NCBI RefSeq assembly: GCF_001610835.1
Contig: NZ_CP011270.1
Location: 2,002,001 to 2,066,000, forward strand
Origin: Planctomyces sp. SH-PL14
GTDB lineage: Bacteria; Planctomycetota; Planctomycetia; Planctomycetales; Planctomycetaceae
Length of the DNA stretch: 64,000 nt
Reading direction: 5' to 3'
In this document: in pieces, positions 28,421 through 33,615 of the stretch
Layout of the letters: each line of letters begins with the position of its first letter
Position numbering within the stretch: position 1 is the first letter of the stretch
Position numbers and translations under genes: made by a program
Notes under the pieces: model-generated
The model's database searches: none
What the model was told of the DNA's origin: nothing
Seen by the model: only the letters and a program-made list of their open reading frames with translations

Positions 28421-28717
28421 GGTGGAAGAAACAGGGGAGCCGGCCGGACCAGGCGACGTCGCGCCAGCGGTCCGGAAGAGGTCGATCAGCGTCTCTCACG
28501 ACGGGTAACGCCGTGAGTCATCGACTCTCGAACCGGGATTGCGGTCCGCGGATAACGCCCGTCTCTTTGCGGTCTTGACCGAATTTTCCCGCAATCTGGG
28601 ATTGTCACGTTTGCGCTTCGCGTAAAAATACTCCCAGTTCGCGTTCTCCGCGACGCGACGGACTAAAGCCCATGAATGCTGGACATGGCGAGCCAGCCGA
28701 TTGGGGTGGTTCAAAAT
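28421..28717. other. Intergenic region ahead of the candidate structured RNA
   Basis: No convincing gene. On the plus strand TTGTCA and an AT-rich block (TAAAAATA) near 28600-28635 could be a promoter for the RNA downstream; spacing is about 15-17 bases. Confidence 0.35.
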
Positions 28718-28734
28718 AGAAAGGAGGTGGTCCT

Positions 28735-28776
28735 GTGCAGTCTGACAGTAGCCAAACACGAGGTGGTTCCGTCTGA
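28735..28776 (+). CDS. Possible 13-residue micro-ORF in the candidate RNA
   Basis: GTG start 7 bases after a perfect GGAGG, encoding VQSDSSQTRGGSV and a TGA stop. The ribosome site is the strongest seen in the window, which is the only support for translation. Confidence 0.25.
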   Translation: MQSDSSQTRGGSV

Positions 28777-28843
28777 CCAACAGTCGGCGGGCTGTCCCAG
28801 ACAGCCATCTCCTCGTAAGGATCACCGATCCTCTGCGAGCCAA

Positions 28844-28877
28844 GAAGCCCGGTCCTCCGTGAGGAGCACCGGGCTTC
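28844..28877 (+). terminator. Terminator-like hairpin of the candidate RNA
   Basis: Stem GAAGCCCGGT / ACCGGGCTTC (10 bp) with an inner CCTC/GAGG stem and CGT loop. The following bases (GCTCACTTTA) are only weakly T-rich. Confidence 0.5.
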
Positions 28878-28983
28878 GCTCACTTTAGGCGAGGCCGAAG
28901 GGGTTCAGACGGAAGGCGGAAGGGAGAGAGGCGGGGACCAGGCTTCGTTTGGAAATGGATTTCGAAGGCGTCCCACCGACACC

Positions 28984-29039
28984 AGCCCGAAGCGCTAGCG
29001 AGGGACGAAGTGCGAAGTCCCTCGCTAGCGCTTCGGGCT
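28984..29039. repeat. REP-like perfect inverted repeat
   Basis: Two perfect 22-base arms (28984-29005 and 29018-29039) around a 12-base loop CGAAGTGCGAAG. The arm begins AGCCCGAAGCGCTAGCG, and a near-identical single arm overlaps the stop codon at 2909-2930, so this is a dispersed short palindrome. Confidence 0.8.
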
Positions 29040-29099
29040 GATGTGAGTTTCCTGACGGGGCCTGAAGCGGCTCCGCGGTCGACCGCCCTCGGCGGATGA

Positions 29100-29174: not shown

Positions 29175-30926
29175 TTACGGAGCGTTGGGGGGACGACGCT
29201 GGCCGAAGCCTTCTCGCAGTTCCTCCCGAGTGATCTTCCCGTCTCCGTTCCGGTCGAGCCGCTTGAAGTTCTCCTTCATCCGTGCGGGAGCTTCCTCTTC
29301 CGAGATCCCTCCGTCGCCGTTCCGGTCGATCTGATTGAAGAACTCCCCCTCGCCTCCCCGGGGGCCAGGACGATCCCCTTCGCCGCGCGGACGATCGCCT
29401 TCCGGACGCGGACGATCACCATCGGGCCGACGATCTCCTTCGGGACGCGGGCGATCTCCTTCTCCTCGCGGCCGATCACCATCCGGACGACGCTCACCCT
29501 CGGGACGCGGACGGTCGCCGTCGGGCCGACGGTCCGCTTCAGGGCGAGGCCGATCACCATCCGGACGCCGCTCTCCCTCAGGACGCGGACGGTCACCATC
29601 AGGACGCCGTTCTCCTTCAGGACGCGGACGGTCACCATCAGGGCGCCGTTCTCCTTCAGGGCGCGGACGGTCCCCATCAGGACGCCGCTCTCCTTCGGGC
29701 CTCGGACGGTCGCCGTCCGGGCGAGGACGGAATCCCTCCGGCCCTCCCATGCCCCGGTCTCCGGGGGGCGGGCCGAACGCTTCGGCCATATCGATCTCAC
29801 CATCGTCATTCCGGTCGAGCCGACGGAAGTGCTCCGCGGCATTGCGAAGTTCTTCGCGAGTGATCCGGCCGTCGTGATCGGCGTCCAACACCCCGAACAG
29901 GGGAGCCCGCGGTCCCTGCGGCCCCGGACGCCGCTCGCCGTCGCGCGGCCCGTCGTCGGGACGACGTTCCCCGTCACGAGGCCCGTCCGGGCGCCGTTCG
30001 CCATCACGCGGACCGTCCGGGCGACGCTCACCATCGCGCGGCCCTTCCGGTCGGCGATCCCCGTCCCGCGGACCATCCGGGCGCCGTTCGCCATCGCGAG
30101 GACCTTCGGGACGACGTTCTCCATCCCGCGGTCCGTCCGGACGGCGTTCGCCATCTCGCATTTCCCCACCGGGCCGCCGCTCGCCGTCGCGCGGCCGGTC
30201 GTCAGGACGGCGTTCGCCGTCGCCACGGCCGTCTCCCCGCTGGGCCATCATCCCTTCCAGCCGCCCCAGGTCGATCTCGTCCCGTCCGCTGCGTTCCATC
30301 ATCTGGACGAGCCGCTCCCGCATTTCTCCGGGGAGCCGATCGACTTCGTCCTTCGTCAGCTTGCCGTTGCCATCCCGATCGAGCTGCCGGAACCGCGCTC
30401 CGTCTCCGCCGCCCCCCGGGCCTCCGGGCGGACGCCCCATCCGTTCCCGCAGGCCGCGCAGGTCCTCGGGGGTCAGTTCGTCCTTCTTGAGTTCATCGAA
30501 GCCGGTCTTAAGCCGCTCCTTCACGAACTCCGGAGCCTGAGAGTTCTCCAGCTCGCGGCGGGAGAGCTTGCCGTTGCCGTCGGAATCGAGGCGGCGGAAC
30601 ATCTCCTCGGGGTTGGGCATCCCACCCCGGCCCGGACCTCCCGGTCCCCCGGGTCCGCCCGGCGGGCCCGCGACCGGCCGCTCTTCCGCATTCGCTGCTC
30701 CCTCGAACTCCTCGCGGGTCAGGACCCCGTCCTTATCTTTGTCCCCGGAGCGGAGCAGCCGCTCGAAATGCCGCGTCTGCTCTTCGGAGATCTCGCTCTT
30801 CTCGAGCTTGCCGTCCTTGTTCTTGTCGAGGCCGGAGAACAGCTCAGCCGCCTCATCGGCGCGGGCGGCAGCGGTGGGAAGCAGAAGGGCGGCGAGGCAG
30901 GCCACCTTCCAGGAAAGACGTGTCAT
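29175..30926 (-). CDS. Secreted EF-hand protein with charged tandem repeats
   Basis: A 583-residue exported calcium-binding-type protein. A signal peptide (MTRLSWKVACLAALLLPTAAARA) is followed by eight canonical EF-hand loops: DKNKDGKLEKSE, DKDKDGVLTREE, DSDGNGKLSRRE, DRDGNGKLTKDE, DADHDGRITREE, DRNDDGEIDMAE, DRNGDGGISEEE and DRNGDGKITREE. They are separated by a Gly/Pro stretch and two tandem repeat arrays, about 10 residues (GERRPDGPRD) and about 13 residues (GDRPRPEGERRPD) per unit. It probably binds calcium outside the cell; the arrays are charge-balanced and likely disordered. A strong terminator follows. Confidence 0.88.
   Translation of the reverse strand: MTRLSWKVACLAALLLPTAAARADEAAELFSGLDKNKDGKLEKSEISEEQTRHFERLLRSGDKDKDGVLTREEFEGAANAEERPVAGPPGGPGGPGGPGRGGMPNPEEMFRRLDSDGNGKLSRRELENSQAPEFVKERLKTGFDELKKDELTPEDLRGLRERMGRPPGGPGGGGDGARFRQLDRDGNGKLTKDEVDRLPGEMRERLVQMMERSGRDEIDLGRLEGMMAQRGDGRGDGERRPDDRPRDGERRPGGEMRDGERRPDGPRDGERRPEGPRDGERRPDGPRDGDRRPEGPRDGERRPDGPRDGERRPDGPRDGERRPDDGPRDGERRPGPQGPRAPLFGVLDADHDGRITREELRNAAEHFRRLDRNDDGEIDMAEAFGPPPGDRGMGGPEGFRPRPDGDRPRPEGERRPDGDRPRPEGERRPDGDRPRPEGERRPDGDRPRPEGERRPDGDRPRPEADRRPDGDRPRPEGERRPDGDRPRGEGDRPRPEGDRRPDGDRPRPEGDRPRGEGDRPGPRGGEGEFFNQIDRNGDGGISEEEAPARMKENFKRLDRNGDGKITREELREGFGQRRPPNAP
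29359..29720 (-). repeat. Tandem coding repeat, 39-bp unit
   Basis: Codes for consecutive GDRPRPEGERRPD-type units in the C-terminal half of the EF-hand protein, with unit variants (EADRRPD, RGEGD). Direct repeats of this kind are prone to copy-number change. Confidence 0.85.
29925..30228 (-). repeat. Tandem coding repeat, 30-bp unit
   Basis: Codes for roughly ten GERRPDGPRD-type units in the middle of the EF-hand protein. Units differ by synonymous and D/E changes, so the repeat is old enough to have drifted at the DNA level while keeping the peptide. Confidence 0.85.

Positions 30927-31226: not shown

Positions 31227-33615
<2,389 letters not shown>

Follow-up and report, generated by a model that had tools for sequence, protein, structure and literature searches.

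In the Caulobacter sRNA CC2171 (Rfam RF01867), the ribosome site is GAAAGGAGGUGAUCC.GUG; a short frame opening with GTG, hairpins and a terminator follow. CC2171 loci in Rhizobiales, Caulobacterales and Acetobacterales have frames of 21–25 codons, and the RNA is free-standing in the loci looked at. Open-access papers mention CC2171 by name only, and no function is assigned to it there. Leader-peptide and dual-function RNAs such as rnTrpL (PMC10117765) are likewise small structured RNAs with a short frame that is translated.

An RNA of a similar plan was found in the window (the whole 64,000-nt stretch of Planctomyces sp. SH-PL14 DNA that was analysed). It possesses the CC2171 feature GAAAGGAGGUG.UCC followed by a GUG start. 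In a 361-base search at relaxed thresholds, it matched CC2171 from end to end with 27.1 bits (E 0.0005), far below the family cut-off of 75 bits. Other planctomycete loci score 19–28 bits and alphaproteobacterial loci 75.5–91.5 bits; the cut-off was reached in 8 of the 18 alphaproteobacterial loci tested. No Rfam family reached its cut-off in the window. The statement of the first-pass annotation that no known family fits is thus true at curated cut-offs, but CC2171 is a weak and informative relative in kind. Differences are also evident: no counterpart of P1 or P4/P4b of the planctomycete RNA (Table 1) was seen in the alphaproteobacterial loci inspected, and the two peptides are unrelated. 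Unlike rnTrpL and similar systems, the planctomycete RNA has neither a conserved downstream gene nor peptide conservation.

A scan of species genomes for GAAAGGAGGTGRTCCNGTG gave, among the matches listed, mostly alphaproteobacteria, where the site precedes clade-specific short frames: those of Rhodobacteraceae have 18 codons, those of Rhizobiales about 25 and those of Bradyrhizobium 14. Several clade-specific families of short-frame RNAs with the extended site can be distinguished in this class (L126–L205), only some of them covered by CC2171; examples are Rhodobacteraceae VSRVILERGVGTV..., Bradyrhizobium VSYLKRCHLAGIAR and Rhizobiales VSHCHQP.... The 18-codon frames of Rhodobacteraceae (L128, L153 and others) have the same site, a constant length and, as in the planctomycete RNA, structured-looking RNA 3′ of the stop codon. 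The set again shows no amino-acid selection (synonymous share 0.226 vs 0.28 expected). The RNA sequence differs from that of planctomycetes and is below the Rfam cut-off in the loci tested. The sequences suggest that translation occurs in CC2171 and in comparable sRNAs now classed as non-coding. The likeness between the planctomycete and alphaproteobacterial RNAs is compatible with shared descent and with convergence alike.

Gene layout and distribution

The locus is best explained as a small RNA gene that stands alone, measures about 250 bases and is widespread in planctomycetes. From 5′ to 3′, it has promoter-like hexamers and a 5′ hairpin, then the complement of the 16S tail, a frame of 10–18 codons that stops directly ahead of a covarying hairpin, and lastly a terminator-like hairpin (Table 1). 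The transcript would start near 28636, and a layout of the type TTG...TAnnAT is present 5′ of the first hairpin in homologues. The first-pass annotation had described a structured, unusual block at 28718–28885. Its structured character agrees with a folding z-score of −3.36, and the block is real and forms the core of the RNA family, but the element begins about 80 bases further upstream.

Table 1. Features of the planctomycete RNA locus (coordinates refer to the window).
Feature	Position	Strand	Basis
Promoter-like hexamers TTGTCA - 16 - AAAAAT	28602..28629	+	1 found vs 0.1 expected in shuffles
P1, 5′ hairpin TCGCGT - loop - ACGCGA	28639..28658	+	Found in 69/75 loci
P2/P3, imperfect stem closing CCCA...TGGG, inner hairpin GCTGG...CCAGC	28668..28705	+	Sequence and alignments
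AGAAAGGAGGTGGTCC, complement of 16S 3′ tail	28718..28733	+	Pairing and sequence search
13-codon micro-frame GTG...TGA (VQSDSSQTRGGSV)	28735..28776 (stop TGA 28774–28776)	+	Frame conservation, codon tests
P4, outer helix of frame end (GAGGTGG...GTCTG) with downstream CAGACAGCCATCTC	28760..28815	+	Covariation, 75 distinct sequences
P4b, inner hairpin ACAG-TCGGCGGG-CTGT directly 3′ of stop codon	28780..28795	+	Covariation
P5, hairpin holding GGATCACC (28819–28826)	28812..28839	+	GGATCACC repeats part of 16S tail
Terminator-like hairpin AAGCCCGGT...ACCGGGCTT	28846..28876	+	Sequence and folding

In the window, the locus occupies an intergenic gap, and both flanking genes are on the opposite strand. 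No neighbouring gene is common to the 18 loci compared, so the RNA is read as a gene of its own; a cis leader of a conserved operon was rejected on the same grounds. A leader-peptide attenuator, where the position of the ribosome would control a downstream gene, could account for the short frame with its stop beside a hairpin, for the terminator-like hairpin and for the segment CTCG, which is able to pair in P4 or P5 in mutually exclusive ways. This reading is highly improbable, however, since a conserved co-oriented downstream gene is absent among the 18 loci and the next gene in the window is on the opposite strand. An origin of the block as part of a protein was rejected, as the block is intergenic and its conservation is RNA-like, with frame-keeping indels. 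No tRNA or tmRNA was found in the window, where ARAGORN recognised no tRNA-like domain.

Other features were observed downstream. A perfect 23-base inverted repeat (AGCCCGAAGCGCTAGCGAGGGAC and its complement; 28984–29040) separates the RNA gene from the next one; its core has no second exact copy within the window. An EF-hand-like protein encoded at 29175–30926 (−) contains near-identical R/P/E/G/D repeats in a long run (GERRPDGDRPRPE). An ammonium-transporter-like gene is followed by two consecutive PII-like genes (31227–33615, +; assigned by eye).

Homologues of the block were found in planctomycete intergenic regions, where the first-pass annotation had proposed to look for them. A nucleotide search over 59 genomes showed the surrounding block to be conserved in 18 of them, including the host's own. 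With 15 homologues as the training set, a 100-position covariance model was made. It gave matches in 288 of 397 genomes from the same class, nearly always one per genome, a tally resting on a model trained on relatives; about a quarter of the class genomes have no match. Two or three matches, candidate second copies, were observed in a few genomes (G059, G029 and G398). In genus g62, which belongs to the window's own family, the listed genomes (G152, G174, G182, G261 and others) all lack a match, which suggests that the RNA was lost or has diverged strongly in this genus. Weaker matches with the same layout occur in other classes of the phylum, with frames such as VSNDCSRGLRV, VSDCTKGLHS and VKYDCTKGLRN, each before a CCGACGG loop. 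A broader model, run on a phylum-wide sample of 294 genomes, matched 59 of them (E 0.001). No report of a planctomycete homologue was found in the open-access literature.

The ribosome site and the micro-frame

The 16-nt match to the 3′ end of 16S rRNA, with one G–U pair, was noted in the first-pass annotation and is borne out on the canonical bacterial tail GGAUCACCUCCUUUCU, which was assumed for the host organism. The segment AGAAAGGAGGTGGTCC forms 16 contiguous pairs with this tail, one of them G–U, with a pairing energy of −29.2 kcal/mol as compared with −8.7 kcal/mol for GGAGG alone. A single match in 64 kb at three mismatches, where 1.0 is expected, is by itself not beyond chance. The sequence GAAAGGAGGTGRTC occurs once in the 8.4 Mb genome of the host and is present in 46 of 59 relatives. 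Contiguous pairing with the canonical tail extends over at least 11 bases in all 75 loci, with a median of 15. Most changes of the site among these loci keep the pairs, A being replaced by G opposite U and C by U opposite G; at site position 13, 68 of the 75 have a purine (G or A). A chance origin of the block was rejected on the basis of its conservation in relatives, the class tally and the site pairing in 75/75 loci. With the canonical tail assumed, pairing with the full 16S tail is kept by selection along its length.

In Staphylococcus aureus, extended start-proximal sites serve ordinary initiation (PMC13009471). A long site match could merely mean strong translation, which is a simpler alternative for the site; strong translation alone, however, would not account for a free-standing gene with an unselected peptide.

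The 13-codon frame starts with GTG seven bases after GGAGG, as the first-pass annotation had it. A frame of 10–18 codons is present in all 75 loci, with GTG (63), TTG (10) or ATG (2) as the start codon and with all three stop codons in use. With the start chosen automatically, the first stop codon immediately precedes the P4b loop in 67 of 75 loci in this frame vs 15 and 4 in the other frames. The distance from the start to the GAGGTGG anchor varies (22, 25, 28, 31, 34 or 40) and remains in one phase in 62 of 66 cases; in the other four (distances 17 and 20), the anchor is in another phase, while the frame is intact and has the same end point. A purely non-coding, trans-acting sRNA, whose ribosome-site-like segment would pair with a target other than 16S rRNA, does not fit this fixed-spacing start codon, in-frame stop and frame-keeping length changes. 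It is regarded as improbable, although the gene is free-standing with promoter-like and terminator-like ends and Rfam lists the family closest to it, CC2171, as an sRNA.

The amino acids follow another pattern. In 29 non-overlapping nearest pairs, differences are spread evenly over the codon positions (58/62/68 at positions 1/2/3). Of 134 changed codons, 27 are synonymous, a share of 0.20 vs 0.24 expected without selection, and the two halves of the frame agree in lacking amino-acid selection. The codon tests thus detected no purifying selection on the peptide, within the limited power given by 29 pairs of short frames. Codon choice is unlike that of nearby genes, with CGA, GGT, TGT and AGT favoured.

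These data bear on the possibility of a dual-function or coding sRNA, where the peptide of 10–18 residues would be the active product and the surrounding RNA would tune its synthesis. The conserved frame and the strong ribosome site are in line with such a role, and peptide function could explain why a Cys codon is present in 63 of 75 frames and why most frames end in QRGGx. On the other hand, changes are even over the codon positions and the synonymous share is not raised. In addition, QRGG is almost always spelled CGAGGTGG, with rare codons, and because CGAGGTGG is the paired arm of P4, the common ending is likely to be an RNA constraint. In Gemmataceae-like families, the peptide becomes VCSSDNQRRLA and the stop position is unchanged. 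A peptide product is accordingly considered somewhat unlikely, and the micro-protein suggested in the first-pass annotation is not supported. Since the frame and the stop position are kept and the amino acids are not, the RNA probably acts by engaging ribosomes and not via its peptide, which is probably a by-product.

Hairpins and covariation

The first hairpin, P1, has 53 distinct 5′ arms in relatives, mostly 62–70 bases 5′ of the ribosome site, and its loop is kept as (A)ACGCA. Paired changes were seen in the inner hairpin of P2/P3. According to inspection by eye, the P3 loop (GCTGGT, GCTGGC or GTTGGCA) could form a pseudoknot with ACCAGC, GCCAGC or TGCCAAC in several loci; the partner is the segment of the frame directly before CGAGGTGG.

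The helices at the end of the frame are supported by covariation. In P4b, 93.9% of the cells are paired and 6 of 7 pairs have changed on both sides; P4 and P4b together show both-side changes in 15 of 19 pairs. The 75 sequences contain 92 cells changed on both sides vs a shuffled mean of 32, in an alignment fitted to the model, which favours structure. Pairing in the structure alignment amounts to 89% as compared with 24–52% in slid controls. Hairpins are indeed present after the frame, as the first-pass annotation had noted. The last one in the window, described there as terminator-like, lacks a strict U run; comparable hairpins close the RNA in homologues, and many of these have a T run.

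A self-controlled switch was also considered, with the ribosome site masked by CCACC, the 3′ arm of P4, or by GGATCACC of P5. Both segments are over-represented 3′ of the stop codon: CCACC was found in 50 of 75 loci vs 13 expected and GGATCACC in 19 of 75 vs 0.1 expected. GGATCACC is nevertheless absent in several families, and the predicted unpaired probability of the ribosome site (0.43) is higher than the RNA average (0.34). Where P4 is altered (CAGCCGC, CAGCCTCC and GGCTACCC), it tracks the arm in the frame and not the ribosome site; masking of the site by P4 was therefore rejected as a general mechanism. The switch as a whole seems a poor candidate.

Proposed mode of action and significance

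The preferred reading, to which a probability of roughly 45% is given, is a regulatory RNA that engages ribosomes and is translated for the sake of translation itself, not of the peptide made. Judged from sequence comparison, the features kept by selection would be tight 16S pairing, the start codon, the frame, the stop codon at a fixed place and the hairpin located there. The RNA may recruit 30S subunits very tightly via the 16S-tail complement, and the frame may serve to let a ribosome load, translate and be released at the P4 hairpin. While positioned on the stop codon, the ribosome would cover one arm of P4, so translation and P4 would be mutually exclusive. On the simplest reading, the state of the ribosomes (free 30S subunits, or the rate of initiation or termination) could then determine how the RNA folds, how long it lasts or how active it is; alternatively, the RNA could engage ribosomes and tune their supply. 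It may also hold or sequester ribosomes, as the first-pass annotation had suggested.

6S RNA, which binds RNA polymerase, is a small RNA imitating the natural substrate of a central machine. A more specific and rather unlikely proposal is that the planctomycete RNA is its ribosome counterpart: a strong landing site would hold 30S subunits and free them only by translation of a disposable frame of 10–18 codons, and ribosome supply and translation state would set the activity of the RNA. The same plan, by descent or convergence, would apply to CC2171 and the 18-codon RNAs of Rhodobacteraceae. The likeness to 6S RNA is by analogy only, as a substrate-imitating small RNA, with the part of the planctomycete RNA hypothetical; the target differs, and the two RNAs have no sequence relation. 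No RNA holding ribosomes in such a manner was found in the open-access literature.

The locus adds an RNA family that is widespread in one phylum and absent from Rfam 15; riboregulation has been little studied in this group. Its reading frame is kept by evolution while the amino acids are not, and the same pattern is present in alphaproteobacteria. The question of whether translation itself can be the function of an sRNA thus becomes directly testable.
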